Shown here in pieces: positions 15,263 to 34,893 of a DNA stretch of 64,000 bases. A program made the position numbers and the translations under genes. Each line of letters starts with the position of its first letter. Position 1 is the stretch's first letter. This DNA comes from Nocardia sp. NBC_00565 (GTDB taxonomy: Bacteria; Actinomycetota; Actinomycetes; Mycobacteriales; Mycobacteriaceae). The notes beneath the pieces are model-generated. The model was not told the origin of the DNA, searched no databases, and worked only from the letters and a program-made list of their open reading frames with translations. Where the stretch lies: contig NZ_CP107785.1 in the NCBI RefSeq assembly GCF_036345915.1, positions 1,178,001 to 1,242,000 of the forward strand, in the 5' to 3' direction.

Positions 15263-15285
15263 TAGAAAAACAGTGTAGTTTTACC
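15263..15285. promoter_or_regulatory. AT-rich operator, ligase-cupin type, copy 1
   Basis: TAGAAAAACAGTGTAGTTTT plus ACC, an imperfect inverted repeat in an otherwise GC-rich context, 121 bases before the ligase-cupin start. Near-identical copies lie at 21397-21419 and 34413-34435, and diverged ones at 31241-31262 and 32678-32700. Likely both promoter and operator for a TetR-type regulator. Confidence 0.65.
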
Positions 15286-15405
15286 GTGTGGCGGTTTCCT
15301 GCCCTGCGGGAACGGATGTTTGGGCTGCGCCTCAGCCTGCCCACGACGGGATCGTGTGCCTTCGACCAGGCTCGCTGAGCGCATGCTACGAAGGAGTTCA
15401 AATAC

Positions 15406-17751
15406 ATGAAGACAACTGGTGCGATCGTGTCGGACTCGGCAAGCCCCGGCGTGTCCAGGGATCTAACTCCCGAGGTCGTCCATGCGACTGTCCGCCGTCT
15501 CACTGGCCCTGGTCAGATGTTCGAAGTAAACGAGCGCGACGTGGCTGGCGTGACTCAGCGCGTGTTCACCAACGCGGCACCCACTTTGCTGGACATCCTG
15601 CAGTTCGGTCGCGGGCATGGCGGCGCGGATTTTCTGGTGTTCGCCGACCGGCGGTGGACCTTCGACCAGTTCTTTGCCGATGTCGATGCGCTGGCGGCCA
15701 CGTTGCAGCACGACATGGGGGTGCAGCCGGGGGACCGGATAGCTATCGCGATGCGCAACTGTTCGGACTGGATCATCACCTTTGCGGCCAGCGTTCACGT
15801 CGGCGCCGTCGCGGTGCTGATCAACAGTTGGGGTTCGGCCGAAGAGTTGCAGTTCACCCTGCGTGACTCGGATCCGGCAATACTTGCGGCCGACTTGCCG
15901 CGTACCAGGTTGGGTGTCGACGTACTGTCCGAACGGGGCATTCCGGTGCTGTTCAGCGACGTCGACGGAGACGAAACCGGACTCGAGTCGGTGCCGCACT
16001 TGGACGTGCGAACCATCCGCGATGCCGTGGCCGCGGGTCGAGGGCGCGATTACGTCAAGGCACCACAGGCCACGCACGACACGGCGCTGTTGCTCTACAC
16101 CTCCGGCAGCACAGGTCACCCCAAGGGAGTCCTGTACCGGCACATCGCGGTCGGGCAGTCGCTGATGCACATGATGCTGGTTGGCTTCCTGGGCGTCGAA
16201 TTCGGCGGCCCTGTCGAGCTGCGCGCAGAAGCGAGTGTCGAGGCCCACCTGGTCACAGTGCCGCTGTTCCACGCGACCGGACTCTTCGGCGGCTTTCTGC
16301 TGCCCTGCGCGGTCGGACATAAGATTGTCCTGTTGCGCAAATGGGACGCCGAAACGGCGATGCAAGTGATCGAAGCCGAGAAGATCACGATGATGTCGAC
16401 CGTGCCCGCGATTCTCAAAGATCTGCTGACCCATCCGCGGCTTGCCGACCACGATGTGTCCTCGATAGCGCGAGTCGCTGCTGCTGGGGCCGCGACCCCC
16501 GCCGATCTTCCGGACCTGATCAGCGACAAACTCGGCATAGCGAATCGGTCGTCGGGCTACGGCATGACCGAAACCACGTCGGTGTGCGCGACCATGAGCG
16601 GTCCGGTTTTCGATCTGAAACCAACCGCTGCCGGTATCGTCTCCCCGATCATCGACCTGCGCGTCGTCGACGTCGAGGAGGAGGTTCTCCCGCCCGGACA
16701 CGAAGGCGAAATCCAACTACGCGGCGTCATAGTGACCCCCGGCTACTGGCACCGTGATGACCTCACGCACGATGCCTTCACCTCCGACGGCTGGCTTCGC
16801 ACCGGCGACCTGGGTCGCATCGATGACGACGGCTTCCTGCACATCACCGGACGAATCAAAGAAATCGTCATCCGCGGCGGGGAGAACATCGCCCCGGTCG
16901 AGATCGAGAACGTTGCTTACCGCCACACCGGGGTCAAGGAGGTCGCCGTGTTCGGCGTCCCCGACGACGCCATGGGCGAGGAACTAGCGATGGTGTGCCA
17001 CCCCCAACCGGGCTTCGCACCGACCGAGGACGAACTGCGCCGCCACATGCGAAACGCACTCCCCGGGTTCAAGGTACCCAAATACATCAGGCTGACGGAC
17101 ACGCCCCTACCCCGCAATGCCAGCGAGAAGATTCATCGCCTGGCCATTCGCAATAACTTCACAGTAGACCCAATCCCATCGGACAGCCCTGCATCAGCAA
17201 CGAGGAGGCCTGAGTCCGTCCGACGTGTCGTGACCGGCCACGACACGCAGGGTAAGGCGGTTTTCGTTGAGGATCGACTGGTCGAACCGATCTCTGTCGC
17301 GATGACCAGCACTGTCTACCACCAATTGTGGCGAGCTGACGCACCGTCCACGTTTCCCGATTCGGGCGCGATCGGCCCCAGCACGACGTTCTTCCCGCAG
17401 TTGGGCGGCTACCGATTCTTCCTTCTGACCTTGCCGCCCGGTGAAGGCCACGGAAACCTCGACGGCGTCGACATCGACGCCGGTTTGCGTGAGCTTCAGG
17501 ACAAGTTGCCCGGTGTGCTGGAAACCAACGACTTCGACAGCCCCGGGATGCACACCACCGAAACCGTCGATATGGAGATTGTGTTGTCGGGGGAGATTGT
17601 CCTCGAACTCGACGACGGAATCGAGACGACGTTGCGCGCCGGCGACGTGAACATCCAGAACGGTACTCGACACCGCTGGCACAATCGCGGCACTCAACCT
17701 GCGGTGGTCGCTGTGGCCATGGTCGGCGCATCCCGCGCCAAACCATCATGA
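15406..17751 (+). CDS. Acyl-CoA ligase (AMP-forming) fused to a C-terminal cupin domain
   Basis: A 781-residue protein. Residues ~60-590 are an ANL-family CoA ligase: phosphate loop LLYTSGSTGHPKGVLY near 228, GYGMTETTS near 383, WLRTGDLGRIDDDGF near 462, the hinge-region RIKEIVIRGGENIAPVE near 482 and the catalytic lysine in NASEKI near 573. Residues ~615-781 form a separate cupin-like domain with MHTTETVDMEIVLSGEIVLE, GDVNIQNGTRHRWHNRGTQP and AVVAVAMVG. The first part activates a carboxylic acid to its CoA thioester; the cupin role is unknown (sensing, decarboxylation or isomerisation are possible). ATG 15406 follows GAAGGAG. It heads a cluster with oxidoreductase, hydratase and NTF2-like genes. 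Confidence 0.9.
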   Translation: MKTTGAIVSDSASPGVSRDLTPEVVHATVRRLTGPGQMFEVNERDVAGVTQRVFTNAAPTLLDILQFGRGHGGADFLVFADRRWTFDQFFADVDALAATLQHDMGVQPGDRIAIAMRNCSDWIITFAASVHVGAVAVLINSWGSAEELQFTLRDSDPAILAADLPRTRLGVDVLSERGIPVLFSDVDGDETGLESVPHLDVRTIRDAVAAGRGRDYVKAPQATHDTALLLYTSGSTGHPKGVLYRHIAVGQSLMHMMLVGFLGVEFGGPVELRAEASVEAHLVTVPLFHATGLFGGFLLPCAVGHKIVLLRKWDAETAMQVIEAEKITMMSTVPAILKDLLTHPRLADHDVSSIARVAAAGAATPADLPDLISDKLGIANRSSGYGMTETTSVCATMSGPVFDLKPTAAGIVSPIIDLRVVDVEEEVLPPGHEGEIQLRGVIVTPGYWHRDDLTHDAFTSDGWLRTGDLGRIDDDGFLHITGRIKEIVIRGGENIAPVEIENVAYRHTGVKEVAVFGVPDDAMGEELAMVCHPQPGFAPTEDELRRHMRNALPGFKVPKYIRLTDTPLPRNASEKIHRLAIRNNFTVDPIPSDSPASATRRPESVRRVVTGHDTQGKAVFVEDRLVEPISVAMTSTVYHQLWRADAPSTFPDSGAIGPSTTFFPQLGGYRFFLLTLPPGEGHGNLDGVDIDAGLRELQDKLPGVLETNDFDSPGMHTTETVDMEIVLSGEIVLELDDGIETTLRAGDVNIQNGTRHRWHNRGTQPAVVAVAMVGASRAKPS

Positions 17752-17878
17752 ACACAGCTGATAAGCGAATACCGATGGCCCACGCTATGGACAGCAAGCA
17801 ATTGCTCGCAGCGGTGTAGAGGCAGCCGGTCCTCCGTTGGCGGCGTGTCGATATCGGAACGATATAGAGGAGAGATGT

Positions 17879-18853
17879 ATGAAAGCATGGCAGGTTATCG
17901 AACATGGCGAGCCGAAAAAGGTAATGGAGCTCGGTGAGAAAGCTGTTCCGGAACCGGGCCCCGGCGAGGTACGTATTCTAGTAAAAGCTGCGGCTTTAGC
18001 TTTGCCGGACGTTTTTATGTGTCGAGGAACCTACGCTTTCAACCCGGGAATTCCGTTTACCCCTGGTCAGGAGGTGGTCGGCATTGTCAATGCTACCGGC
18101 GCAGGAGTTGATCTTGCTGTTGGTTCTCGTGTGATCGCCACAACTTCTTTTATCCAGGGGAATGGAGGGTTTGCCGAGCAGGCCCTCGCCCCGATCAGTG
18201 CGACGTATCCTATACCGGATGGCATGCCCGATGAGGATGCGGCCGCTTTCCTGATCCCGTTTCAAACGGCATATATTGCTTTGGCCAGACGAGGGCAATT
18301 ATTGCGAGGTGAAACGCTACTTGTTCATGGTGGGGCGGGTGGCGTTGGATCGGCTGCCATACAGGTGGGCCGTGCACTCGGGGCCAAGGTTATCGCTACC
18401 GCTACGGGACCAGAAAGAGTCAAGGCATGTCTCGATCTGGGGGCTTCTTTGGCGATCGATATCGGCGGGGAGGATTTTGCGGAAATAGTCAATAAGGCTA
18501 CGGAGGGGCGTGGTGCGAACGTGATATTCGACCCCGTAGGTGGTGATGTGTTCATCCGGTCGTTCAAGTGCATTGCCAATGAAGGGAGGCTGTTGGCCAT
18601 CGGCTACTCGAGCGGAAGTTGGAAGAATGCAGCCACCGGGGCTGTTGTCTTCAAAAACTGCTCAGTAGTGGGTGTTCTTGCTGCATTGTATGATAAAGAG
18701 TTCTTGGATCGCACGCATGAGGAGTTACTTAAACTCTACGCTGAAGGTAAGATCCGGCCGAGAAAACAAGAAATATCATTTGACGATATTCCTGATGCGC
18801 TGACCGACCTCGTTGATCGAAAGGTGATCGGCAGAGTAGTCGCGGTACTGTGA
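17879..18853 (+). CDS. NADPH:quinone oxidoreductase-like MDR protein
   Basis: A 324-residue zinc-free medium-chain reductase. The N-terminal GroES-like fold has PGPGEVRILVKAAALALPDV and PFTPGQEVVGIV; the cofactor motif VHGGAGGVGSAAIQVGRALG is near residue 145 and FDPVGGDVFIRSF near 218. ATG 17879 follows AGGAGAG; an upstream GTG is ignored. Such enzymes reduce quinones or enoyl/enone double bonds with NADPH. The codon usage is clearly less GC-biased than in neighbours (many A/T third positions), continuing to about 20250, suggesting recent acquisition. Confidence 0.85.
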   Translation: MKAWQVIEHGEPKKVMELGEKAVPEPGPGEVRILVKAAALALPDVFMCRGTYAFNPGIPFTPGQEVVGIVNATGAGVDLAVGSRVIATTSFIQGNGGFAEQALAPISATYPIPDGMPDEDAAAFLIPFQTAYIALARRGQLLRGETLLVHGGAGGVGSAAIQVGRALGAKVIATATGPERVKACLDLGASLAIDIGGEDFAEIVNKATEGRGANVIFDPVGGDVFIRSFKCIANEGRLLAIGYSSGSWKNAATGAVVFKNCSVVGVLAALYDKEFLDRTHEELLKLYAEGKIRPRKQEISFDDIPDALTDLVDRKVIGRVVAVL

Positions 18854-18932
18854 CTGTGGCGACTGGTGTCTTGCAGTATATCTCATTTATTTTGCGTTGT
18901 TGCCGACGAGATTTTTAGGAGCTGAGTTTACG

Positions 18933-19733
18933 GTGAACGAAAGAATATCAGTAGACAAGGTCAATCATGTCGCCACGTTGACATTGAGCAGGCCCGAGAA
19001 GCATAACGCGTTCGATGGCGTGGCCTTGCAAGAGTTCGGTCAATGTATGGATGAGCTCAGCAAGGACGAAGACACCAGGGCGATCATTATTACTGGCGCT
19101 GGAAAGTCCTTCTGTGCGGGTAGTGACACCGCATATATAAGCGAGATTCAAGCGGATATGGGTAAATCGGCGGGGCGATTCAATTTCCATAAACCCTTTG
19201 GCCCGTATCAGGTACTTCCCTCTTCTCTGCATAACTGTCCGAAGCCTACGATCGCCGCCATCAATGGTTTTACTTCTGGCATAGCGGTGGCTTTGATCAG
19301 TCTCTGTGATTATCGCATTGCATCGGAAAGGGCATCTTTTACACCCCAGTTCGTCAATTTTGGTTTGGCCGCTGAAATGGGGATTAGTTACACCCTGCCG
19401 CGGGTCACCTCGCTGTCTGTCGCTCTCGAATTTCTGAGTACTGGAGAGAAAAGGGACGCTCAATGGGCGAAGGAGTGTGGATTGGTAAAAGAAGTGACGT
19501 CTCCGGAAGGCTTGATGAAATCGGCGATGGAATTGGCTGACAAGCTGGCGAGCATGCCCCCGGTTTCGGTGGAAAACATCAAGCGTTTGGTCTATCAGGC
19601 GATAGACCCGGGTTTTGAAGCGCAGCTTCAATTCGAGGCTCGCGTTGGAACAGCGTTGGGCCAGACTGAAGATTGCATGGAAGCTGTCGTCGCCATGATG
19701 GAAAAGCGAGCGCCGGTTTTCAAAGGCAAGTGA
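18933..19733 (+). CDS. Enoyl-CoA hydratase/isomerase family protein
   Basis: A 266-residue crotonase starting at GTG 18933 (TTTTAGGAGCTGAG upstream). Motifs: SRPEKHNAFDGVALQEF near residue 19, the oxyanion loop AGKSFCAGSD near 57 and INGFTSGIAVALISLCDYRI near 110, where crotonases have their second oxyanion glycine. The usual catalytic glutamate pair is not evident by eye; the second region reads PQFVNFGLAAEMGISYTLPR, so it may be an isomerase, hydrolase or lyase rather than a true hydratase. It lies in the low-GC block with the quinone oxidoreductase and NTF2-like gene and probably shares their transcript. Confidence 0.85.
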   Translation: MNERISVDKVNHVATLTLSRPEKHNAFDGVALQEFGQCMDELSKDEDTRAIIITGAGKSFCAGSDTAYISEIQADMGKSAGRFNFHKPFGPYQVLPSSLHNCPKPTIAAINGFTSGIAVALISLCDYRIASERASFTPQFVNFGLAAEMGISYTLPRVTSLSVALEFLSTGEKRDAQWAKECGLVKEVTSPEGLMKSAMELADKLASMPPVSVENIKRLVYQAIDPGFEAQLQFEARVGTALGQTEDCMEAVVAMMEKRAPVFKGK

Positions 19734-19781
19734 GTTGACTGCATGTATGCATGGGCGATCACTAAAAATGGGAGTTCAAAA

Positions 19782-20252
19782 ATGGCCGAAAATATGACGG
19801 CTGAAGAAGTTGTCAGGGCATGGAATGATGCTTACTCCAGGAAGGATCTCGAAGCCACATTGGCTCTTATGTCCGAAGACTTCATTCGATTGGGCGACAG
19901 TTCTCACTGGACGCCGATCAACAAGAAGGACTGGGGGCAGATCATGATTGATTTCTTCAAAGCATTTCCTGACTGGCACTGGGATATGACAACTTTGACA
20001 GCCTCGGGTGATCGGGTGGTGTGTGAGTTTACTGAGAACGGTACTTTTACCGACCCGTATCCAGTGCTGCCAGGTCTGGTTCTGGCCCCGACGGGAGAAT
20101 CCTATACCGACTATGACTGCGATTGTTTCGAAGTTAAAGATGGGCTCATTACAGAGATTCGCGCTTACGTAACAAATGAACTCGATAGAAAATTTAGATT
20201 TGTTTCAAAAATAGAAGAGTTTCTTTCGACCGGCAACGCTCCAGAAAAATGA
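19782..20252 (+). CDS. SnoaL/NTF2-like protein, cytoplasmic copy
   Basis: A 156-residue protein starting at ATG 19782 (GGGAGTTC upstream; an in-frame ATG at 19743 is less likely). Sequence blocks: TAEEVVRAWNDAYSRKDLEA, LMSEDFIRLGDSSHW, AFPDWHWDMTTL, VCEFTENGTFTDPYPVLPGL and VKDGLITEIRAYVTNE. This is the polyketide-cyclase-like NTF2 fold. It is a clear paralogue of the next gene, which has the same blocks behind a Tat signal. No signal peptide here. The role, probably cyclase or hydratase on a pathway intermediate, is inferred only from context. Confidence 0.8.
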   Translation: MAENMTAEEVVRAWNDAYSRKDLEATLALMSEDFIRLGDSSHWTPINKKDWGQIMIDFFKAFPDWHWDMTTLTASGDRVVCEFTENGTFTDPYPVLPGLVLAPTGESYTDYDCDCFEVKDGLITEIRAYVTNELDRKFRFVSKIEEFLSTGNAPEK

Positions 20253-20296
20253 AACCCGAACACAATTTCGCACGAACTGGCAATCTGGAGGATCCC

Positions 20297-20896
20297 GTGA
20301 AGACGAACTCTGCCACCGACCGAAGCGCCAGTACAAACATCTCACGCCGCTCCGCTATGGCGGCTCTAGGCGCAGTCACGACGGTTGGTGTGCTGGCGGT
20401 GCCCGGGCGGGCGGAGGCGGCCGGGCCGCCCCGGGGCAGAAAGTCACCGACGAGCCAGCTAAGTCCAGAGGAGGTTGTTCGAGCCTGGAACGATGCCTAC
20501 GTCAAGCATGATGTCCAGGGCTGTCTGGCGTACATGTCCGACGACTTCCAGCGCATCGGTGATTCCACTTTGTGGGTGCCGCAGAACAAGCAGCTGACAG
20601 AATACACGTGGACGCAATTCTTTGCTGCTTTCCCGGACTGGACGTGGGACATGACCAGCCTCAACACCATCGGAAACCTCGTCGTGTGCGAATTCACCGA
20701 GAGAGGGACGTGGACCAAGCCGTACAACATCTTGCCCGGGGTGACCCTCCAGCCGACCAATACGTCGTTCGTTGACCATGACGCTGACTTCTTCACGGTG
20801 AAAAATGGTCTGATCACAGAAATTCGCGCCTACATCACGAACAACTTTCAGCGGATTTACGGCCTCGGCACAGTGTGTGCCCCGAAAATTCCCTGA
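20297..20896 (+). CDS. SnoaL/NTF2-like protein with Tat signal peptide
   Basis: A 199-residue protein. GTG 20297 follows CTGGAGGATCCC, a strong site, and gives a typical Tat signal: a basic start, ISRRSAMAALGAVTTVGVLA near residues 15-35 and cleavage near AEA-AG. An alternative ATG at 20249 overlaps the previous stop. The mature part repeats the preceding gene: SPEEVVRAWNDAYVKHDVQG, YMSDDFQRIGDST, AAFPDWTWDMTSL, VCEFTERGTW, VKNGLITEIRAYITNN. So one copy works in the cytoplasm and one outside the membrane as a folded protein. GC-rich codon use returns here. Confidence 0.85.
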   Translation: MKTNSATDRSASTNISRRSAMAALGAVTTVGVLAVPGRAEAAGPPRGRKSPTSQLSPEEVVRAWNDAYVKHDVQGCLAYMSDDFQRIGDSTLWVPQNKQLTEYTWTQFFAAFPDWTWDMTSLNTIGNLVVCEFTERGTWTKPYNILPGVTLQPTNTSFVDHDADFFTVKNGLITEIRAYITNNFQRIYGLGTVCAPKIP

Positions 20897-20970: not shown

Positions 20971-21300
20971 TCAGGCGTTGGCCTCGAGCAGATGCGCGAA
21001 CCTCGCGCGTGCCGCGGCTAGTCGCAACGTCGCGCGGCGCGCTGTGGCTCCCGTTGGACCATCTGGTGGCTGGAACTGTGCCTCGAGGGGATGTCGCGAA
21101 AGATGTTCATCCCCCACGTATTTCGCTCGACGACGATCATCGAGCAACGGCTCATTCGTCGCCGTCGAGAACAGCTGTCGACTGGATCTGGATGAGATCG
21201 GTGCCGGCAACCCAGGATTCGGTGATTGCGAACGCGCTGCGTATATCGCCGCGCAGGTTGCGCCCGAGACGATCCACAGCCTGTCGTGCCATCGCCACGA
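20971..21300 (-). pseudogene. Acyl-CoA dehydrogenase remnant, three retained blocks
   Basis: Minus-strand blocks match the intact dehydrogenase at 29925-31214 in order. NLRGDIRSAFAITESWVAGT continuing to STAVLDGDE corresponds to its substrate/FAD loop. RCSMIVVERNTWGMNIFRDI with PSRH follows in another frame. LAAARARFAHLLEANA and a stop at 20971 match its C-terminus. About 1,290 bases have shrunk to some 330 by at least two internal deletions. The remnant faces away from the operator at 21397 and the decayed ligase beyond it. Confidence 0.8.
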
Positions 21301-21396
21301 CTGTCGTCTCCACTGCGCCCCGGTAGTGGCCCTCGTTGCAAGGCCCGCCACCGGGGCCACAGCAGCGGGGGTCTTGTGACGCGGGCCACTGCGTGG

Positions 21397-21419
21397 TAGA
21401 AAAACGGTGTAGTTTTACT
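21397..21419. promoter_or_regulatory. AT-rich operator, ligase-cupin type, copy 2
   Basis: TAGAAAAACGGTGTAGTTTT plus ACT. The flanks also match copy 1: GGGTCTTGTGACGCGGGCCA before it, and GGGATCGTGTGCCTTCG plus GTGAAGGAGCTCAATGCATG after it. It now sits between the decayed dehydrogenase and the decayed ligase. Confidence 0.65.
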
Positions 21420-21537
21420 GGGTCGTGGTTTCGAGCCGCTGCAGGAACGGATTTGGGTGTGTGCCCAGTCTGTCCTTAACGGGATCGTGTGCCTTCGGCC
21501 AGGGTCGCTGAGCACATGATGTGAAGGAGCTCAATGC

Positions 21538-21770
21538 ATGAAGACCCGCAATGCATGAGACCCGAAATAGCCTGCGCGTCGTCGACGTCGAGGAAAAGGC
21601 TGGCCCGTCGGGGTGCGAATGCGAAATCCAACTACGCGGCGGCACGGTGGCTCCCGGCTACCGGCACCGCGATGACCTCACCCATGAGGTATTCACTTCC
21701 GAGTTGGTTTAGACCGGCGACCTGGGTCGCATCGATGACGACGGCTTCCTTCATTCCGGGAATAAGCGTC
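21538..21770 (+). pseudogene. Ligase-cupin gene remnant, copy 2
   Basis: From ATG 21538 the start resembles the ligase-cupin start, then jumps to sequence equivalent to 16655-16845 of the intact gene: LRVVDVEEKAG, GCECEIQLRGG, PGYRHRDDLTHEVFTSEL, a stop, TGDLGRIDDDGF. Over 1,200 bases between the ends of these blocks, and everything after them, are missing. The intact parent is at 15406-17751. Confidence 0.85.
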
Positions 21771-21844: not shown

Positions 21845-23086
21845 ATGGAACAAATGGTAGATAATCGTTCGTCGCGGACGGGCTCGTCGGCAGCATTGCG
21901 GCTGGGACTGGTCGCACTGGTGTCTGGTCTTGCGTTGACGGCGTGCAGCAATTCCAGCCCGGATAGTGCCGGTTCGTCCGGTCCGACGGTAGCGCTGTCC
22001 GATAACAAAGCGACGGGGACGCCGATCAAGGTCGGATACGTCAGTCCGGAGGGCGGACCGATGGGGCAGTTGCCCGAGCCGCGGGCGGCTGCCGAGGCGG
22101 CGGTTCAGTATGTGAACCAGAACCTCGGTGGTGTCTCCGGCCACCCACTTCAGTTGGTGGTATGCACGCAAAAGGAAGATCCGGCGACGGCTCGCAATTG
22201 CGCGAACCAACTGGTGGCAGACGGTGTCGTTGCGGTTCTGGCACCGGTGACCTCCCAGGGTGACGCCTTGGTGCCGATTATCACAAACGCCGGGATTCCC
22301 TATGTGACAGTTTCAGGAGCGAGTCGGAGCGAGATGTCGGCGGACAACGCCTTCGTCCTGACCGGCGGTGTACCGGGCGCGTTTGCTGGGGCCGCGAAAT
22401 ATTCGGCCGAGCACTATAAGAAGGTTGCGTTGCTCATCATCGATGCGGGCGGAGTGCTTGCAACGGTGAAATTCCTGGCGGAGCCGGCATTTCAGCAGGC
22501 CGGTGTCCAGTTGGACGTTGTGGGTATTCCTTTGGGCACGCCCGACACGACGCCTCAGGTGAACGCTGCGCTTGCTCAGCATCCTGACGCGGTATTCGTC
22601 GTCGGGGACGGTTCGCTGTGTACGTCGGTATTCAAAGCCTTGTCCAGTTTGGGGTCTACCGCAGATAAAATGGCGGTGCAGACCTGTGCGGGGCCGGATG
22701 TTATGGCTTCCATCAGCAGTGAAGTCGAAGGCGCGAAAATTTTCGGAACCTTCGACGCAACGTCCGACAATGAGGACACAAGGGTATTTCGTACGGTGTT
22801 GCAGAAATACTCGCCGGAAACCAGTATGTATGGCTTCGCATTCTCCGGTTATCAGACGTTGCTCGGCCTGACACGCAGTCTTCAGGGTATCCAGGGAGAT
22901 ATCACCGCCGCGTCGGTCGGTGCCGCGATGCGCGCGTCGAATAATGTGCCGCTTCCGCTGGGCGACGGATTGACGTTCACGTGCGACGGCAAGCAGTTCC
23001 CGATGTTGAAGGCGGTCTGCGGACAGGGCGTGATCGTCGAGACCGTCAAGGACGGCAAGTTGGCGGGCGCCCAAGTGGTCCGCTAG
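21845..23086 (+). CDS. Branched-chain-type ABC transporter substrate-binding lipoprotein
   Basis: A 413-residue periplasmic-binding-fold protein of the LivJ/Peripla_BP_6 type. The N-terminus has a lipoprotein signal (LGLVALVSGLALTAC, lipobox LTAC near residue 31), so it is anchored outside the membrane. The mature part begins PIKVGYVSPEGGPMGQLPEP and contains ARNCANQLVADGVVAVLAPV and a second lobe from VVGDGSLCTSVFKAL. It supplies substrate to the permease-ATPase genes directly downstream. Family members in actinobacterial catabolic clusters bind aromatic, steroid-like or short-chain acids; which one applies here is unknown. Confidence 0.9.
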   Translation: MEQMVDNRSSRTGSSAALRLGLVALVSGLALTACSNSSPDSAGSSGPTVALSDNKATGTPIKVGYVSPEGGPMGQLPEPRAAAEAAVQYVNQNLGGVSGHPLQLVVCTQKEDPATARNCANQLVADGVVAVLAPVTSQGDALVPIITNAGIPYVTVSGASRSEMSADNAFVLTGGVPGAFAGAAKYSAEHYKKVALLIIDAGGVLATVKFLAEPAFQQAGVQLDVVGIPLGTPDTTPQVNAALAQHPDAVFVVGDGSLCTSVFKALSSLGSTADKMAVQTCAGPDVMASISSEVEGAKIFGTFDATSDNEDTRVFRTVLQKYSPETSMYGFAFSGYQTLLGLTRSLQGIQGDITAASVGAAMRASNNVPLPLGDGLTFTCDGKQFPMLKAVCGQGVIVETVKDGKLAGAQVVR

Positions 23087-23127
23087 TCCCGATAACCGTT
23101 CCCGCTCAACAGGATGTGCAATAGCTC

Positions 23128-25896
23128 GTGGATCAACATTTAGCTTTTCTCGCGTTGGGGTTGGGTAATGGCGCGGTGTACGCCGCGCTGGGTTTGGCGC
23201 TCGTCATGACGTTCCGCAGTTCCGGAGTCGTGAACTTCAGCACTGGGGCGGTGGCGCTGTATGTCGCCTACAATTTCGCCTTCCTACGTCGGGGAGAATT
23301 GCTGGTGCCCATACCGGGTCTGCCGAAGAGTGTCTCGCTGGGCGGCCCGCTGGGTGTCCTGCCCGCCTGCGTCATCTCACTGGCCATCGCCGCTCTGCTC
23401 GGAGCAGTGCTGTACGTGGCGATTTTCCGGCCGTTGCGCAACGCTTCCACGGTGGCCAAGGCGGTGGCGTCGATCGGTGTGATGCTGGTGGTGCAGGACG
23501 TGTTGGCGCAGCGGGTGGGCACCAATCCGATATCGGTGAAACGGATCTTCCCGGCTCATTCGATCGGGTTCGGTGGCGCGCACGTGCCGACGGACCGGAT
23601 CATCCTGGCGGGGGTGGTGATCGGCATCGCGTTGTTGCTGGCGTTGCTTTACCGGTTCACCCGGTTCGGCTTGGCGACGCGGGCGGCGGCGTCGTCGGAG
23701 AAGGGCGCCATTCTCACCGGGCTCTCACCGGACACCATTGCTATTGGCAACTGGGCGTTGAGCACGATGGTGGCCGGCATCAGCGGGATTCTGATCGCCC
23801 CGATAGTTCCGTTGGTCCCGCTGTCCTACACATTGTTCATCGTGCCGGCCCTGGCTGCGGCTTTCATCGGAAACTTCGGATCGATGACACTCGCGGTGGG
23901 CGGTGGTTTGTTGATCGGGATGCTGCAGGCGGAGGGGACCCATCTGCAGACGACTATCAGTTGGTTCCCGCGAGCTGGGATGTCCGAGGTGGTGCCGCTG
24001 GTTCTGATCCTCGCGTTCCTGGTATTCCGCGGCAAGCCGCTGCCCACTCGTGGTGCGGTGGTGGCGCGATCACTCGGACGATCACCGCGTCCTGAGAGGA
24101 TTTTGTCGACGACGGTGATCGCCGCGGTGATCGCCGTAGTGGCGTTGATTGCTACATCTGGAGCTGATCGGACGGCGCTCATCGTAACGTTCATCCTCGC
24201 GGTCATCGCTTTGTCTCAGGTTGTGGTAACGGGATTCGCGGGGCAGGTGTCGCTGGCCCAACTCACACTGGCGGGTGTCTCCGCATTCACGCTCAGCCGT
24301 CTGGGCGAGGACCTCGGCGTGCCGTTCCCGTTCGCGCCGATCCTGGCGGCGCTGGTGGCTGCGCTGGTCGGGGTCGTGTTCGGCTTGCCAGCGCTGCGGG
24401 TCCGCGGGCTGCCGCTCACGGTTGCCACCCTGACCTTGGCGGTGTTCTTGGATGCGTTCTGGTTTCAGAGCGGCGCGTTCACCGGGGGCCTGACGGGTGC
24501 GCACATAAAGCCGCCGACCCTGTTCGGTCTCGATCTCGGGATCGGAGCGGGCCAGGGATATCCGAGGATCGGCTTCGGGCTGCTGTGCCTGACCGTGCTG
24601 GTCGTCGTGGCTGTGGCTGTGGCGTTGTTGCGTAGGAGCCGTCTGGGGGCCTCGATGCTCGCGGTCCGCGCCAACGAGCGCTCGGCCGCCGCCGCAGGGG
24701 TCGATGTCGCGCGAGTCAAGCTCGCCGCGTTCGGGATCGGCGCGTTCATCGCCGGACTCGGTGGCGCGCTGATGGCTTATCAGGAAACCCTGGCCACATC
24801 GCAGTCATATTCGGTATTCGCCGGAATCGGTTTGTTCGCGGTGGTTTATGTCGCCGGAATCACGTCGGTGTCGGGCGGAATACTGGCAGGCGCACTCGGA
24901 CCGGGCGCGATCGTATTCACGTTGAGCGCCCAGTATCTGCATCTGGGTCCTTACTACGTCACGATCAGCGGGATACTGCTGGTGCTGATCGTGATCCGAT
25001 ACCCGGAAGGCATCGCGGGTCAGTTCCATCGACTTCTCGACCGTATGCGAAAGCCATCCGGGGCGGTCGTACCTCCTGCCGATCTCGTGAAGCCTGTGTC
25101 GGGGCAGGTCGCACCGGCAGGACAGTTGGGGGACCTGCTGTTCTCGGCAACAGGTCTGAACGTCAATTACGGCAGCATCGTCGCCGTCGACGACGTGTCC
25201 ATCCGTGTGCGGCAAGGTGAGATCCTCGGGCTCATCGGCCCGAACGGGGCGGGCAAGACAACGCTGATCGACGCGATCAGCGGGTTCACGAAGGCCGAGG
25301 GCAACGTGGTTCTCGGCGATGTCCGGCTGGATTCGATGCGCCCGCATCACCGCAGCAGGCTCGGGCTCGGACGCTCGTTTCAGGGAGTGGAACTCTACGA
25401 CGACCTCACCGTGCGCGAGAACGTCGAAGTGGGGCGCGGCGCCGCGCGGCACAGGCCCGCCGCGGCTCGCCGCGGCACCGATGCCGACGCGTTGGCGTCA
25501 CTGTTCGGCCTGCTCGAATTGGATTCGGTGGCCGAGCGACCGGTGGGGACGTTGTCCCAGGGGCAGCGGCAACTTGTGTCTGTCGCGCGGGTGCTGGCCG
25601 GTGCTCCTACCCTGGCCCTGCTCGATGAGCCCGCCGCCGGGTTGGATACCGGCGAAAGCCTGTGGCTGGGAGAGCGGTTGCGGTCTGTCCGCGATACCGG
25701 TGTGGCCATCATGATGGTGGACCACGACATGGAACTTGTTCTTCAGGTGTGCGACCGGATCATCGTGCTCGATCTCGGCGCGGTCATCGCCGACGGAACC
25801 CCGGACGAGATTCGCAACGATCCGCGCGTGGTGCGCGCTTACCTCGGTACCCCGCACGTGTCGTCGAAAGGCTGTGAGGAAAATGCTCGAATGTAA
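23128..25896 (+). CDS. Fused ABC importer: LivH- and LivM-type permeases plus LivG-type ATPase
   Basis: A 922-residue three-part protein. Residues ~1-300 are a LivH-like permease ([20 protein letters not shown] at the start), ~325-620 a LivM-like permease ([26 protein letters not shown]-type [20 protein letters not shown]), and ~670-915 an ATPase. ATPase motifs: Walker [10 protein letters not shown] near 703, signature LSQGQRQL near 808, Walker [13 protein letters not shown] near 829, and H-loop DHD near 862. Permease pairs fused to the G-type ATPase are less common than separate genes. With the lipoprotein upstream and the F-type ATPase downstream (14-base overlap) it makes a complete importer. 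Confidence 0.92.
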
Positions 25897-28893: not shown

Positions 28894-29928
28894 TTATGAC
28901 GCGTACTTATGGGCCCTGATCAGGAGTTGATCGACGACGGTCCCGAAGTATTCGTGCATGGGGTTCTTCGATCGCCCGCTCAGATGCTTGGCATAGGAGG
29001 CTTCGAGGACGATTGCGAGCTTCCAGGCGCTGAACGCCTTGTACCAGTCGAGATTCGACAAGTCGCGAGAGGTTCTGTCCGCATATCGAGAAACGAGTTG
29101 CAACGGGGTCTGGCAATAGTTGTGGTCCATGCCGCCGGGTTGGCCCGGGGGTACGAAGGCCAGTGTGTTGCCCTCCTCGGGCCAGAAGATCATGGCCCAG
29201 GCAAGATCGATGAGGGGGTCTCCGATTGTGGTCATTTCGAAGTCCAGCACACTCAGGATGGTCGGCGGGACCTGGTTGCTGAACAACACATTGTCGAGCT
29301 TGTAGTCGCCGTGCATCACTGCGAGGTCATGGTTTCGGGGCAGGTGCCGCTGCAGCCAGTCGGCGACCTCATCGACACCGGGCAGGTCGCGAACTCGATA
29401 GGTTGCCAGTTGCCGCAACCAGCGGTCCACCTGTCGATCGAGGAACCGGTGTGGATTAGCCAACTCGAGTAGCGTGCTGTCTTTCCACTCGAAATTGTGC
29501 AGAGCGGCCAGTGTGTCGATGAGTTGTTCGCCTACTCGGCGTTGCTGCGCCGGAGCATGAATATAGCTGTCGGGCAGCGTCTTTCGGATGGTAGTTCCGT
29601 CGATGAACTCCATGACGAAGAAGGGGCAGCCGATGATGGCGGGGTCGGCGCTGACAGCCAGCAATTCGGGTACCGGCACGTCGCTGTGTTGGAGGGCATC
29701 GTAGATCTTGTACTCGCGAACAACATCGTGCGCTGTTTCCGACACCGCATCGGAAGGGGCGCGCCTGATGACCCAATCGCGCCCGTGCCGGGTCATCTTG
29801 AACAACTCACATGATCCGCCGCCCCTCATCGGGCTGATCTGCAGATCGCCCGGCTGGCCGGTTTGCTCGGTGAGCCAGTCGCCGAAGGTGGCCAGGTCGA
29901 AGTCCAGCTCTGTGACTGCCTTACTCAT
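28894..29928 (-). CDS. APH-fold phosphotransferase (acyl-CoA dehydrogenase partner), pair 1
   Basis: A 344-residue aminoglycoside-phosphotransferase/choline-kinase-fold protein. Motifs: GGGSCELFKMTRHGRDWVIR (nucleotide lobe), FFVMEFIDGTTIRKTLPDSY (hinge), the catalytic loop MHGDYKLDNVLFS near residue 198 and the metal motif LDFEMTTIGDPLIDLAW near 223. Its ATG overlaps the dehydrogenase stop (ATGA). Kinases of this fold are fused to the dehydrogenase in human ACAD10/ACAD11 and act on 4-hydroxyacyl-CoA in the Pseudomonas levulinate pathway (LvaA). I infer it phosphorylates a hydroxyacyl-CoA rather than an antibiotic. Confidence 0.85.
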   Translation of the reverse strand: MSKAVTELDFDLATFGDWLTEQTGQPGDLQISPMRGGGSCELFKMTRHGRDWVIRRAPSDAVSETAHDVVREYKIYDALQHSDVPVPELLAVSADPAIIGCPFFVMEFIDGTTIRKTLPDSYIHAPAQQRRVGEQLIDTLAALHNFEWKDSTLLELANPHRFLDRQVDRWLRQLATYRVRDLPGVDEVADWLQRHLPRNHDLAVMHGDYKLDNVLFSNQVPPTILSVLDFEMTTIGDPLIDLAWAMIFWPEEGNTLAFVPPGQPGGMDHNYCQTPLQLVSRYADRTSRDLSNLDWYKAFSAWKLAIVLEASYAKHLSGRSKNPMHEYFGTVVDQLLIRAHKYAS

Positions 29929-31214
29929 GCCATCGCCTCGAGAAGGTGACCGAATCGTTGGCGTGCCAGGTCTCGGCGGGTTGGGATGTGTTCGGATGGC
30001 CAGCCTTCTACCGCCTGGTAGCGCTGGAGTTCGGATCGCGCGATGGTGACCTTGTGTACCTCGTTCGCACCGTCGACCAACGAGGCCATACGGGCGATGC
30101 GGAACATCGACTCCAGCGGTAGATCCGAGCTGTAGCCGAGAGATCCATGTACTTGCAGCGCCCGGTCGACGACATCGAAGACAACTTTGGCGTTGTAGAC
30201 CTTCACCATGGCGATCTCGCTGCGGGCCGCCCGGCCGCCCTCTTGGTCGAATTTCCAGGCCGCCCGTAGCGTCAACAGCTTCGCGGCGTCGATCTCGATT
30301 CGGGAGTCGGCGACATACTCCTGAATCATCTGATGTCGCGAATAGGTTTTGCCGAACGAGGTCCGCGATACGGTGCGTTCACACAGCATGTCGAAGGCTC
30401 GTTCGGCTTCTCCCAGCCACCGGGTTGCGTGGTGAAGCCGCCCTGGACCCAGCCGGACCTGGGACAGGACGAAGCCTCCTCCGAGCTCGCCGATGAGGTT
30501 CTCGGCGGGGATGCGAACGTTGTTCAGGGCGATCTCGGAATGGTTGCCGCGGCGGCCGTATTCGACGGACGGACTGTGCATGGAAGGGATGTCACGGAAG
30601 ATGTCCATTCCGGGAGTGCCGCGCTCCACGACGAACATCGAGCATCGTTGATGAGGCGGCGCCGACGGATCGGTCACCACCATGAAGATGATGAAGTCGG
30701 CGCTGGAGGCGTTGGTGATCATCCACTTGCGGCCGTTGAGGACCCACTCGTCGCCGTCGCGTTCCGCGGTTGATTCGATCTGCGTGGGGTCTGTCCCGGC
30801 CACCCACGGTTCGGTGATCGCAAAGGCGCTGCGGATCTCGCCGCGAAGGTTCGGCCACAACCAACGTTCCTTCTGACTGTCGGTCGCGCCACCGGCGAGC
30901 AGTTCCGCGTTGCCCGAGTCCGGCGCCATATTGCCGAACACTTCCTGTCCGAACGGGCACCGGCCGGTGATGAGGTTCATTTGGGCCAGGCGCAACTGGC
31001 CGAATCCGTGACCGCCCAGCGCTTTCTCTAGATGACACGCCCATAGCCCGCGGTCGCGGACACGTTGCTTCAACGGCTCGAGGATCTGTTGCCATGCAGT
31101 CTCACCGACTTCGTCGGCCAACGGCTCGAGCGGTATGAGTTCGTGGTCTACGAACTCGCGAATCCAGCTGAGAGTGGACCGAAATTCGGTGTCGTCGGAG
31201 AAGTCCCACGCCAT
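29925..31214 (-). CDS. Acyl-CoA dehydrogenase, pair 1
   Basis: A 429-residue FAD enzyme starting at ATG 31214 (GGGAGGCTCGC upstream; the longer open frame is rejected). Motifs: RSAFAITEPWVAGTDPTQIE near residue 126, NGRKWMITNASSADF near 158, RLGPGRLHHATRWLGEAERA near 262 and the C-terminal LQVHGSLGYSSDLPLE near 367. It follows the ACAD10/11-like branch rather than short-chain enzymes. It is co-translated with the kinase-like gene. A decayed copy of this gene lies at 20971-21300. The AT-rich palindrome at 31241-31262 directly precedes it. Confidence 0.92.
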   Translation of the reverse strand: MAWDFSDDTEFRSTLSWIREFVDHELIPLEPLADEVGETAWQQILEPLKQRVRDRGLWACHLEKALGGHGFGQLRLAQMNLITGRCPFGQEVFGNMAPDSGNAELLAGGATDSQKERWLWPNLRGEIRSAFAITEPWVAGTDPTQIESTAERDGDEWVLNGRKWMITNASSADFIIFMVVTDPSAPPHQRCSMFVVERGTPGMDIFRDIPSMHSPSVEYGRRGNHSEIALNNVRIPAENLIGELGGGFVLSQVRLGPGRLHHATRWLGEAERAFDMLCERTVSRTSFGKTYSRHQMIQEYVADSRIEIDAAKLLTLRAAWKFDQEGGRAARSEIAMVKVYNAKVVFDVVDRALQVHGSLGYSSDLPLESMFRIARMASLVDGANEVHKVTIARSELQRYQAVEGWPSEHIPTRRDLARQRFGHLLEAMA

Positions 31215-31240
31215 GAGTGCGAGCCTCCCTTCGGTAGTAG

Positions 31241-31262
31241 TTAAAACAACATGGTTTTCTAA
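31241..31262. promoter_or_regulatory. AT-rich operator upstream of acyl-CoA dehydrogenase pair 1
   Basis: Plus strand TTAAAACAACATGGTTTTCT plus AA. On the minus strand this reads TAGAAAACCATGTTGTTTTA, which matches the ligase-cupin operators (TAGAAAAACnnTGTAGTTTTA) with one base less in the centre. It starts 27 bases before the dehydrogenase start codon. Confidence 0.55.
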
Positions 31263-31409
31263 AAAAAAGATTAGCGTTGGAGCGCCGGTGAAGCAAGATC
31301 GACATAGAGGTGGTCGCTGGTGCCGTTGGATGCGTGTGGGCCCGCGTCGTGCGTCACGGTAGGGTCCGTCGCCACCCACCGGCATCTACCGAGTCCGGGG
31401 CGCTGGTGG

Positions 31410-32498
31410 TCAGGTCATCCATAGGTCGTTGGGGTTGCTGGCACTGTGGACCGGCGCGTCCGGTGTGCGGGGCACCGTCCGTGAGAAGCGCGGCGCGACC
31501 GCGGGTTGTACGACATTGTCGACAGTGAGCAGAGTGCCCCGAGCGGCGATGTGTGGATCCGCTACGGCCTCGGCGAATGTCAAAACCGGCGTTACGCAGG
31601 AGTCCGTGTTCTCGAATGTGGCTGCCCACTCATCGCGGGTGCGGGTCCTGAAGACCTTCGTGAATATCGTCCGCAATGATTCCCACTGCGAGGCGTCGTC
31701 GCGATCGGGCAGGTTGGGATCGGACAATTGCAGACCGGCGAGCAGCTGCGCGTAGAACTGCGGCTCGACGGCACCCACCGCGATGTACTTGCCATCCGCG
31801 GTTTCATAGGTGTCGTAGTACGGTGCGCCGGTGTCGAGCGCATTGGTGCCGCGCTCGTCGTTCCACAAGCCGAGTCCCCGAAAAGCCCAAATCATCTGCC
31901 CCAGGACGGAAACGCCATCCACGATGGCGGCATCGACGACTTGGCCCCGACCCGATGTCCGGCGTTCGATGATGGCGGCGAGGACGCCTAGAACGAGGAA
32001 CATCGATCCGCCCCCGAAGTCGCCCAACAGATTAAGCGGGGGGACCGGCCGGTCGTTTCGATGCCCGATCGCATGGAGGAAACCGGTGACGGACAAGTAG
32101 TTGATATCGTGGCCGGCTCGTGCGGCCCGCGGCCCGCTCTGCCCCCACCCCGTCATCCGTGCATAGATCAGCCCGGGGTTGATCGGCTCGAGCGTGTCGG
32201 GGCCGAGCCCCAAGCGTTCCATCACGCCGGGACGAAAACCTTCGATAAGCACATCGGCGCGTTCGATGAGTCTCATGAGGGCTGCCTGGTCGTCGGGGTT
32301 TTTCAGGTCGGCCTCCACCACCGGGCGCCCGCGAAGCATCCCATCGGCGGCATGCCCCGCCAGCGGCAGCCCGCCGGCCCGCTGGATTCGCACGACATCG
32401 GCACCCAGATCCGCAAGGATCATGGCAGCGTGCGGGCCGGGACCCAGACCTGCGAACTCAAGTACCCTCACGCCAGCGAGAGGACCATTCTTCACCAC
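31410..32498 (-). CDS. Alpha-methylacyl-CoA racemase (CoA transferase family III fold)
   Basis: A 362-residue protein. It opens with [33 protein letters not shown] and contains [18 protein letters not shown] near residue 127 and [20 protein letters not shown] near 155. His in GHDINY and Asp in GDFGGG are the catalytic pair of AMACR/MCR, which supports a racemase rather than a CoA transferase. It interconverts 2R- and 2S-methylacyl-CoA, needed before dehydrogenation of methyl-branched (terpenoid or sterol side-chain) acids. Start GTG 32498. It lies next to, and on the strand of, the dehydrogenase-kinase pair. Confidence 0.9.
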
Positions 32499-32794
32499 AT
32501 TTACCCCTTTATCGATTGCGCCGGAATGAACCTGCCGGACGGCGGCGAGCGGTCGGGGACTCCTGCCGCTGCGGTACCCGGGAACATGAACGCCGCCGAA
32601 CGGGACGCGATCGGCCAGCCGTTTGTTCGGGACCGGATCGGCGACGCGCCATTCCGGTTCGGATCGATGTGCCGATATTAAGAAAACACAATTTTTCTAA
32701 AGGAGCAAGCGTCATCATGGTGAAGTGCCTGCCGACACGCGGTATGGCCTCATTGCGATGCCAGCGAACCCCGCGCACGGAACCGGTCCAGGTT
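32499..32794. other. Intergenic region with an AT-rich operator-like site and an orphan start
   Basis: At 32678-32700 TTAAGAAAACACAATTTTTC plus TAA; its reverse strand (TAGAAAAATTGTGTTTTCTT) resembles the other AT-rich sites. It is followed on the plus strand by AAAGGAGC and ATG 32717 (MVKCLPTRGMASLRCQ), a good start signal whose frame has no recognisable continuation and runs into the 3' end of the opposite TetR gene. It probably marks the front of a deleted gene. The site is also 180 bases before the racemase start. Confidence 0.45.
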
Positions 32795-33385
32795 CTAGCG
32801 GTGCGGACCGTCGCTCGATGCCGTCAGCGCCTCCTGGCGGACGCCCGCGACGATCCACTGAATCGTGCGGCGAAACGATTCAGTGGCTGTCTGTGTGCCC
32901 GAAGTGCTTTCGTGGGCATCTGGCGGCTGTCGCAGTGCCTGCACCTCGGTGATCGCGTGGTTGATCGTGGTGTTGGCCAACGCGCGGCAACATTCTGTGG
33001 CGAGTCGGCGGTCGATGCCCGATTGCATGAGCGACCTCAGTAGCCCATTGACATAGGAGGCGACGGCGCCTCGGTCGTCGAAGGTCATCAGCTCGGTCAA
33101 ATATGGATGCGCCAGCAGCGCCTCATGCAGCGCGTGACACCACCGCCAGGCTGTTGCTTCCCAGGTGTCGGCTTCGTGGAACTCCAGCTTCAGCTGGGAG
33201 AAGTGGCGCGCGACCAGTGCGCGGATCAGCTGTTCTCGGTTGCCTACCTGCTGGTAGAGCGTGCGTGTGGAGCATTTCAGGTCGGCAGCGACTCGGCGCG
33301 CGTTGAGTGCCTGTTGCCCCTCGGCATCGAGCAGCTCCAAGGCGTGCGAATAGATCGTCTCGACTGGAATCAGCGGCTTGGCCAC
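32795..33385 (-). CDS. TetR/AcrR-family regulator A
   Basis: A 196-residue regulator. The HTH is LNARRVAADLKCSTRTLYQQ near residues 28-47, followed by VGNREQLIRALVARHFSQL. The C-terminal ligand domain is unremarkable and helical (WRWCHALHEALLAHPYLTEL). Start GTG 33385. It lies between the racemase gene and a second TetR gene and is a candidate regulator for the AT-rich operators at 15263, 31241 and 34413; this is inferred from position only. Confidence 0.88.
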   Translation of the reverse strand: MAKPLIPVETIYSHALELLDAEGQQALNARRVAADLKCSTRTLYQQVGNREQLIRALVARHFSQLKLEFHEADTWEATAWRWCHALHEALLAHPYLTELMTFDDRGAVASYVNGLLRSLMQSGIDRRLATECCRALANTTINHAITEVQALRQPPDAHESTSGTQTATESFRRTIQWIVAGVRQEALTASSDGPHR

Positions 33386-33491
33386 CGGCCGAGGATACCT
33401 TACGGTGACGGCGTTGTTCTAACCGAACGGCTGCTGCTGATTCGCTGAACCACTCGAATGGAGCATCCGAGCGTCGGGACAGCGGAATGGC

Positions 33492-34094
33492 TCACTGCCT
33501 CGCCGGTGAGTTACGCCCGGTTATGTGCGGTCTCGCGTCGTGCTCCTTCGTTAGAAGCAATCCGGTGGCGAGTGTGTCGATCAGGTGCGGTTCATCTGCG
33601 CGGTCCGCGGGCGGCCAGACCAACAGGGCCAGGAACGATCGGATGACCAGCGCCGTGTGGATAGTGTCCGCAGGGTCCAGGCCGAGAAGATCGGCGGCGA
33701 TTGTCGACACAGCGGGTGATCGCACTGCGATTTGCGCGCCGTCGATCACGCTCCGCGATTGTGGGAACTGGCGGGCGATCGGATCGGCCCGGATCTCGCG
33801 TAGGGCCACAGTGAAAGCCGTGCGTGCGCGTTCGGATCCGGTGGAGTCGGCCACGGCGCGGCGAATGGCGTCGGTGATTCGGGTGGAGACACGAAGGAAC
33901 ACCGCCTCCACGAGTTGCTTCTTGCCGCCCGTGTGCCGGTAGATCGTGGCGCGTGAACAGTGCGCTCGGGCCGCGAGTTCGTTGATGTCGAAGCGATCGA
34001 CACCGCGTTCGGCGATCAGCTCACCAGCGACCCCGTAGAGGCGTTCACGAGCGCTGTCGGAGCGGCTGGGGCCGACGAGCCAATCATGGGGCAT
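33492..34094 (-). CDS. TetR/AcrR-family regulator B
   Basis: A 200-residue regulator with the HTH FDINELAARAHCSRATIYRH near residues 35-54, then TGGKKQLVEAVFLRVSTRI. ATG 34094 is immediately preceded by a small perfect inverted repeat (34096-34108), suggesting autoregulation at a different kind of site from the AT-rich operators. C-terminal ligand-binding helices include VIRSFLALLVWPPADR. Confidence 0.88.
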   Translation of the reverse strand: MPHDWLVGPSRSDSARERLYGVAGELIAERGVDRFDINELAARAHCSRATIYRHTGGKKQLVEAVFLRVSTRITDAIRRAVADSTGSERARTAFTVALREIRADPIARQFPQSRSVIDGAQIAVRSPAVSTIAADLLGLDPADTIHTALVIRSFLALLVWPPADRADEPHLIDTLATGLLLTKEHDARPHITGRNSPARQ

Positions 34095-34095
34095 A

Positions 34096-34108
34096 TCTCA
34101 CTATGAGA
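34096..34108. promoter_or_regulatory. Inverted repeat at the start of TetR regulator B
   Basis: TCTCA-CTA-TGAGA, perfect 5-base arms, one base away from the start codon of the minus-strand TetR gene; flanking bases extend it weakly (ATCTCA / TGAGACA). Probable autoregulatory operator. Confidence 0.55.
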
Positions 34109-34247
34109 CAGCCTGGCAATGTGTTTCAACTGTTCGAGGAGGTCGCGGCGTCGATGTGAGACAAACCGGCAGCGGCTGTGGCGAGTGCGAATGTCGACTT
34201 CGGGTGGACCTCTTGCGCGCAACTCGGGGCGCATCAACCCTGTTCAC

Positions 34248-34394
34248 ATGCATGATCTCGACAATCCGCATTCGCATCTCTCGGAGCTTCGAGAATCGGC
34301 CTCGGTCCACCGGTTGGGTGATTCCTCGTTGTATCCGGCGACCTCGTGGGAGCTGGTCTCCGAGGTGGTCAGGCATCCGGGGAGGGTCTTGTGA
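34248..34394 (+). pseudogene. Cytochrome P450 N-terminal remnant
   Basis: From ATG 34248: MHDLDNPHSHLSELRESASV, HRLGDSSLYPATSWELVSEV, VRHPGRVL and stop at 34394. The DNPHxxLxELRE, SLYxxTSWELVSEVVR pattern is that of a bacterial P450 N-terminus; the remaining ~350 residues are gone. The break falls exactly where the conserved GGGTCTTGTGAC flank of the ligase-cupin operator begins. Confidence 0.75.
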
Positions 34395-34412
34395 CCCCAG
34401 CCACCTCCGTGA

Positions 34413-34435
34413 TAGAAAAACTATGTAGTTTTACC
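34413..34435. promoter_or_regulatory. AT-rich operator, ligase-cupin type, copy 3
   Basis: TAGAAAAACTATGTAGTTTT plus ACC, preceded by GGGTCTTGTGAC and followed at the usual distance by CACCGTGAAGGAGTTCAATC and an ATG. It may now drive the P450 at 34890 across the decayed ligase. Confidence 0.65.
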
Positions 34436-34553
34436 GTGGCGATCAGTCGCTGACGAACCGACGCCCATGCCTGCGCCCAGATCCCGCCACGAGTTCGGTG
34501 CTTCCGGCCATGGGCCGCGTCTCTCCGGCGCACACCGTGAAGGAGTTCAATCC

Positions 34554-34893
34554 ATGAGGACCATCGGTGCGAACATGTCGGACCCGACGAGCCACTCCGA
34601 GTTCACAGGACCCACTCCCGAGGTGGTCCGCCGCCTTACCGGCCCGGGCGAGATGTTCGAAGTCGCCGAGTGTGACGTGGGGGAGGGCGCGCTAGCGGGC
34701 ATTCACCAACGCGGCGCCCACCGTGCTCGACATTCGAGCCAAGCGGCGTCGGGAGGGCTCGCACCAATGGAAGGAAATCTATGAAAGTACGCCGCATCGT
34801 GACGGGGGCAATAGCGGTACTGAACCTGCGGTAGTCGCTCTCGCGATGATCGGCGCGCCGCGCGCGGATTCCCAAGGTAAGGAAATCGGATGA
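34554..34893 (+). pseudogene. Ligase-cupin gene remnant, copy 3
   Basis: ATG 34554 opens MRTIGANMSDPTSHSEFTGP, TPEVVRRLTGPGEMFEVAEC and further blocks that match the first ~50 residues of the intact ligase-cupin at 15406. The end reads GTEPAVVALAMIGAPRADSQ, matching its cupin C-terminus GTQPAVVAVAMVGASRA. The ~700 residues between are deleted, with frame changes. Retention of both the ligase start and the cupin end shows that the ligase-cupin fusion existed before the duplication. The TGA overlaps the ATG of the next P450 (34890). Confidence 0.88.

Follow-up and report, generated by a model that had tools for sequence, protein, structure and literature searches.

Promoter-operator blocks and the ligase-cupin copies

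The region analyzed here (the window) is a stretch of 64,000 nucleotides from Nocardia sp. NBC_00565 (C1:1178001-1242000 of a genome that consists of a single 9.71-Mb contig), and our subject is a gene for a ligase-cupin fusion protein that is present in the window as one intact copy and two decayed ones, each preceded by the same promoter-operator block (Table 1). All three promoters begin with the shared flank GGGTCTTGTGAC and extend into an operator core, TAGAAAAACnnTGTAGTTTTAC, that is identical in the three blocks, with no mismatches to the pattern used in the window scan; the leader ending in GAAGGAG and the ligase start are both present in 3/3 blocks. The operator pattern has three exact matches in the window compared with none in 100 dinucleotide-preserving shuffles, and the pairwise alignments agree with these counts, in accord with the original prediction of a block that occurs three times.

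The predicted state of the copies is likewise borne out by the alignments and the frame analysis. Copy 1 is a single open frame of 781 amino acids, whereas the reading frames of copies 2 and 3 are both broken, so that coding parts have been lost and the promoters retained; the Shine-Dalgarno sequence is also retained in both decayed copies. Copies 1 and 2 are the closest pair; their alignment falls into two segments, one at 21369-21545 (83%) and one, which covers ligase residues ~416-482, at 21571-21753 (83%). The aligned part of copy 3 (34384-34735) is nearer to another copy at 7.60 Mb (75%) than to copy 1 (68%); two short pieces follow, namely the start of the cupin part (34771-34806) and the cupin end (34809-34865), and the cupin stop overlaps the start codon of the P450b gene in the tetranucleotide ATGA (34890-34893).

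The count of three applies to the window; a fourth, intact copy and a fifth fragment lie outside. With up to three mismatches allowed, the operator has one further match in the whole genome, at 7603645-7603666 on the minus strand, before the second intact ligase-cupin gene (copy 4; G000:C1:7601180-7603519(-)), which has the same promoter and encodes a protein with 80% amino-acid identity to copy 1. The fifth ligase fragment (residues 427-588, 70%; C1:1166749-1167234) is located 11 kb before the window, and a scan of its surroundings detected no operator. Across the order, the operator was found in 1/397 genomes drawn, that one being the Nocardia sp. NBC_00565 genome itself (up to two mismatches), and across the genus in 3/150 genomes including this one (up to three mismatches). 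The matches in the other two genomes carry three mismatches each, and because the reversed-pattern control also hit two genomes of the same set, they are at the background level. Hence the congeners with two or three intact copies that the original prediction proposed to look for were not found among the 150 genomes of the genus scanned for the operator.

The ligase and the cupin are encoded in separate, adjoining frames in Mycobacterium pinniadriaticum (L006, 10001-12271), whereas copies 1 and 4 (the latter at L005, 7178-9520) encode them as a fusion; copy 4 retains the old cupin start methionine within the fusion. A stand-alone cupin gene was found in L008. Ligase and cupin domains occur together in only three of the 120 protein relatives listed, one of the three being copy 1.

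Promoter layout, ancestral module and candidate regulator

The layout of the block in this genome, TTGTGA followed after 17-18 bp by an operator starting with TAGAAA, is shared with the regions upstream of ligase orthologues in three other genomes: L006, which was found again as L028 (identical to the M. pinniadriaticum locus over 3183 bases), L030 and L031. Mycobacterial ligase orthologues were detected in 5/297 genomes. We compared nine sites, namely the four of this genome, those of L006, L030 and L031, and two located beside relatives of the regulator TetR1 (L060 and L061); all nine contain TTGTGA (TTGTCA in L061) 17 bp (18 bp in copy 3) before TAGAA. By its sequence, the block looks like a promoter of -35/-10 geometry with an operator that begins at the -10 element. 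The GGGTCTTGTGAC flank, which had been described as a component in its own right, is indeed common to all blocks but is most simply interpreted as the -35 region.

The copies belong to a larger unit. A cluster at 7.60 Mb (L005) aligns gene by gene with window positions 28880-37025, with 84-89% DNA identity, through the genes for an APH kinase, an acyl-CoA dehydrogenase (ACAD), a CoA transferase, TetR1, P450b and SDRc. Because TetR1 is divergent from the operator-ligase-cupin genes in both L005 and M. pinniadriaticum (L006), copy 3 occupies the ancestral ligase locus, opposite the TetR gene. Its adjacency to the P450 gene is as originally described, but it is not a promoter added there. Similarly, copy 2 is preceded by the relic of an ACAD gene that retains its ancestral orientation, which suggests that copy 2 is the remainder of a larger module; the ligase-cupin unit is repeated, as had been proposed, but the duplicated unit extends beyond it and includes the ACAD gene. 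Each copy is what remains of a duplicated module of the form SDR-APH-ACAD-CoA transferase-TetR / operator-ligase-cupin. Upstream of copy 1 (14569-15234), no module relic was found among the 27 window proteins compared. Between TetR1 and operator 3, a segment of ~960 bp that includes a second TetR gene replaces the spacer of less than 90 bp that separates the aligned parts in L005. The 45-aa open stretch in this segment was considered as a possible P450 start and rejected: it has no Pfam match to E 0.1 and no other genome copy at E<=0.01.

The operator most likely belongs to the neighbouring TetR1, as judged from the co-occurrence of the two. TetR1 just exceeds the Pfam cut-off for TetR_C_1 (21.3 bits, cut-off 21), does not reach that for TetR_N, and matches TetR-family proteins of solved structure by sequence (best E 2e-9). 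Relatives of TetR1 were detected in 6/401 genomes including this one (E<=1e-35), and, besides L005 and L006, there are seven such loci in five other genomes. A site with a partial dyad adjoins TetR1 in L005 and L006, and weak sites with 2-4 mismatches are present at five of the seven further loci (L060, L061, L062, L065 and L066); control DNA of 164,300 bases from 22 loci contained no operator-like sites. The segment RTLYQQVGN, which we take to lie in the recognition helix, is kept in 11 of the 12 aligned TetR1 sequences, L008 being the one that deviates.

A second type of operator was also recognized. Its pattern, GAAAACnnnGTTnnYTTAA, was drawn from sites listed by a matrix trained on the other operators and is thus partly circular; it has three exact matches in the genome, at window positions 569 and 31241 (TTAGAAAACCATGTTGTTTTAA) and upstream of the ACAD paralogue in the 7.60-Mb cluster, and a single one-mismatch match, upstream of P450b in that same cluster (L005 2505). 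Three of these four close sites are in the two clusters, the remaining one being that at window 569, whereas the reversed pattern has no exact match and three scattered one-mismatch matches, all outside the window and L005. Elsewhere, L007 has one exact site and L008 has two, one of which is directly before the stand-alone cupin gene.

Several additional observations were made. The site at 31241-31262 falls inside the listed ACAD frame (29925-31385, minus strand), whose start is probably placed too early, with conservation beginning near 31220-31301. The second-type site at window 566-587 (TTGGAAAACTATGTTACCTTAA), one of the three exact matches, precedes a zinc-type ADH gene (1164-2336) and has a P450-like stretch (3-440) nearby. 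A second ACAD and APH pair (41038-43196, plus strand) is 35% and 32% identical to the first. Finally, an ORF of 552 aa (11425-13083) that carries a ferredoxin domain at its N-terminus is matched over residues 17-108 with 78% identity at L023 15792-16067, just before the window, perhaps another duplicate.

Table 1. Features of the window discussed in the text
Feature	Position	Strand	Basis or details
Promoter 1	15235..15284	+	TTGTGA (-35-like) 15240-15245, spacer 17 bp, operator 15263-15284
Promoter 2	21369..21418	+	TTGTGA 21374-21379, spacer 17 bp, operator 21397-21418
Promoter 3	34384..34434	+	TTGTGA 34389-34394, spacer 18 bp, operator 34413-34434
Ligase-cupin fusion, copy 1, intact, 781 aa	15406..17751	+	Pfam AMP-binding, AMP-binding_C, Cupin_2
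Decayed copy 2: leader, ligase start, ligase piece (residues ~416-482), in-frame stop	21419..21753	+	Alignment, frame analysis
Decayed copy 3: leader, ~75 frame-broken ligase codons, cupin start, cupin end	34435..34889	+	Alignment, frame analysis
Genes after copy 1: quinone-oxidoreductase-like ADH, enoyl-CoA hydratase, two SnoaL-like proteins	17879..20896	+	Domain matches
Liv-type ABC transporter genes after copy 2: binding protein, fused permease/ATPase ORF, second ATPase	21845..26605	+	Domain matches
P450b and SDRc genes, immediately following copy 3	34890..37010	+	Domain matches, alignment
ACAD gene relic upstream of copy 2	21069..21259	-	76-79% DNA to 30573-30851 and L005; tblastn E 1e-15
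APH-family kinase, ACAD, CoA-transferase III of the paralogous module	28894..32498	-	Domain search, alignment, locus comparison
TetR1, proposed repressor at the operators	32795..33385	-	TetR_C_1 over, TetR_N under the Pfam cut-off; adjoins operators in other genomes
Segment between TetR1 and operator 3, no L005 counterpart	33492..34383	.	Second TetR and 45-aa open stretch
Second TetR	33492-34094	-	Within the segment without L005 counterpart
Open stretch, 45 aa	34248-34382	+	Within the segment without L005 counterpart
Second-type operator	31241..31262	-	Just upstream of the conserved ACAD start
Operator-like site upstream of the CoA transferase	32678..32699	-	Matrix listing

Downstream genes and constraint on the decayed copies

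Judging by spacing and strand, copy 1 and the genes behind it probably form an operon. The positions of the transporter genes behind copy 2 and of P450b behind copy 3 suggest that these genes use the respective promoters. The intervals from operators 2 and 3 to the genes that follow them contain no terminator-like site that could be found; nor did a sigma-70 scan call any other sense-strand promoter in these intervals, although the scan passes over the proposed promoters as well. In the 7.60-Mb cluster, P450b faces the ligase gene rather than being located behind it and has its own second-type site ~270 bp upstream; because of this site, membership of P450b in the regulon is plausible on other grounds, and in the window the gene seems to have been kept in the regulon through a different promoter. 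Relatives of the transporter protein LivK (E<=1e-90) are present in 20 of the 148 congeners searched, this genome included; the other 19 are at most 59% identical, and the operator is absent from all 19 genomes (up to three mismatches). Of the genes themselves, the tandem SnoaL-like pair (19782-20896, plus strand) is 54-57% identical, the second member having an N-terminal extension, and a single 922-aa ORF (23128-25896, plus strand) encompasses two transporter permease domain stretches and an ATPase.

Taken together, these data are compatible with the following account, to which we assign a probability of roughly 0.6. An acyl-CoA-type catabolic module, in which SDR-APH-ACAD-CoA transferase-TetR1 is divergent from promoter/operator-ligase-cupin, was duplicated several times in the genome, after which internal deletions removed the ligase-cupin coding parts of two copies and spared the promoter (TTGTGA, 17-18 bp, TAGAAA) with its overlapping TetR operator. 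TetR1 would most likely repress all the sites and be released by a pathway intermediate. In this arrangement the decayed copies would serve as promoter segments, copy 3 for P450b-SDRc and copy 2 for the Liv-type transporter genes, and both gene sets would share the control exerted on the functional ligase-cupin operon of copy 1.

To assess constraint on the promoters, we counted lineage-specific changes at the 27 motif positions common to L006, L030 and L031 and in the leader and coding remnants, excluding gapped columns, the leader Shine-Dalgarno sequence and start codon, and columns without outgroup support. With positions taken as independent, the copy-2 lineage shows 0/27 motif positions changed versus 32/233 others (p=0.024), the copy-3 lineage 0/26 versus 36/230 (p=0.016), and the two decayed copies pooled 0/53 versus 68/463 (p=3.6e-4). 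The intact copies preserve the motif just as well, with no change in copy 1 and one in copy 4. The suggestion that the promoter was the useful part of the decayed copies is favoured by this count with respect to constraint; reuse is suggested by adjacency.

One alternative is plain duplication with recent decay, in which promoters 2 and 3 survive only because they are short and the decay is young, and the downstream genes use other promoters. Such a history would explain why the Shine-Dalgarno sequence is kept as well, and the operator-like site ahead of P450b at 7.60 Mb would suit it. In the coding part, copy 3 has 18 changes compared with 13 in copy 4, a small excess, so that its decay may be recent. 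The pooled counts speak against this explanation, as does copy 2, in which 21 copy-2-specific coding changes versus 5 specific to copy 1 indicate that much of its history was relaxed, yet its motif positions are untouched; the failure of the sigma-70 scan to call other sense promoters counts little, since the scan misses the proposed promoters too. We consider recent decay without reuse rather unlikely. On the same sequence comparisons, the evidence that selection later acted on the promoter is fair in the case of copy 2 and slight in that of copy 3.

Several points weigh against promoter reuse under TetR1 control. The motif positions were picked with the copies already in view, the lineage test for each copy taken separately is weak, and much of the promoter constraint could predate the decay, mainly in copy 3, for which the small excess over copy 4 and the Shine-Dalgarno sequence, kept as expected after recent decay, are relevant. 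Promoters 2 and 3 are missed by a simple sigma-70 scan, which demands the final T of the -10 element; the actinobacterial -10 element TANNNT ends in a T that TAGAAA does not have, and the spacer of copy 3 is 18 bp. Two of the five mycobacterial ligase orthologues (L027 and L029), in which the ligase gene is behind an ADH gene, have no such site nearby, and two of the seven further TetR1 loci (L059 and L063) have no operator-like site. TetR1 remains under the Pfam cut-off for TetR_N (19.6 bits, cut-off 24). With up to two mismatches allowed, the second-type pattern has 14 genome matches versus 32 for the reversed control, so that only the close matches count.

A different reading of one element, which would leave the rest of the account unchanged, is that the TTGTGA flank is not a -35 box but an activator site of the Crp type, with the consensus GTG-N8-CAC. 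This motif is kept in all seven ligase promoters compared (copies 1-4, L006, L030 and L031) with variable bases in between, but in L060 and L061 the 17-bp spacing is preserved without it. Because of this fixed spacing the -35 box is preferred, and a Crp-type site appears doubtful. The promoter block might also be a unit that moves or recombines at GGGTCTTGTGAC, such as a mobile element or a recombination cassette, but this is highly improbable. The similarity among copies 1-4 does begin at GGGTCTTGTGAC or one base earlier, and DNA without an L005 counterpart is directly upstream of copy 3, but the block lies within a larger syntenic module, another relic of the module precedes copy 2, the edge of the block falls on a promoter boundary that mycobacteria share, and no flanking direct repeat was found among the 20 largest of at least 60 repeat families, a search that covered direct and not inverted repeats.

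Significance and relation to known systems

The assembly of a regulon from separate operons that come under one regulator is usually visible only as a finished result. Here, probable intermediates can still be read, in the form of remnants between a promoter and the next gene and of a paralogous cluster that is still intact elsewhere in the genome, which makes this route of regulon growth directly testable. The case combines duplication, decay and probable promoter reuse in one catabolic regulon that is probably TetR-controlled, and suggests that old duplicates were reused as switches. A more tentative generalization, which we would not back at even odds, is that selection keeps decayed paralogues as promoter-operator segments and that repeated duplication and deletion wired the ligase, transporter and P450 operons to one regulator. 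On the practical side, pseudogene remnants in front of an operon may be working promoters.

Among known families, the best NCBIfam match of the ligase part is the steroid-24-oyl-CoA synthetase CasG (NF052580), with a score of 393.9 bits, well short of the 750-bit cut-off of that family. In the lva pathway, LvaA is reportedly a kinase and LvaC a dehydrogenase. By gene content, the module resembles the levulinate/4-hydroxyacid pathway genes lva (PMC6692424), with an adjoining APH-family kinase and acyl-CoA dehydrogenase and an acyl-CoA ligase. The gene set in Nocardia differs in also containing a CoA transferase, a P450, a cupin and SDRs.

The regulatory arrangement resembles the common pattern of a TetR-family repressor with a divergent catabolic operon, exemplified by KstR-type regulons: the TetR gene is divergent, a near-palindromic site overlaps the promoter, and the several sites are for the most part confined to one cluster of genes and the paralogous one. 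The differences are that the operator and ligand are tied to no described regulator and that two of the sites head decayed genes.

A narrow literature search yielded no match for promoter capture via duplication and pseudogenes within a bacterial regulon, a result that applies to that search. The E. coli citT gene is said to exemplify promoter capture by tandem duplication. Like the captured promoters treated in PMC11111574, the duplicated promoters of copies 2 and 3 now precede different genes; the difference is that the promoter apparently captured here brings along the remnant of its former gene and an operator.

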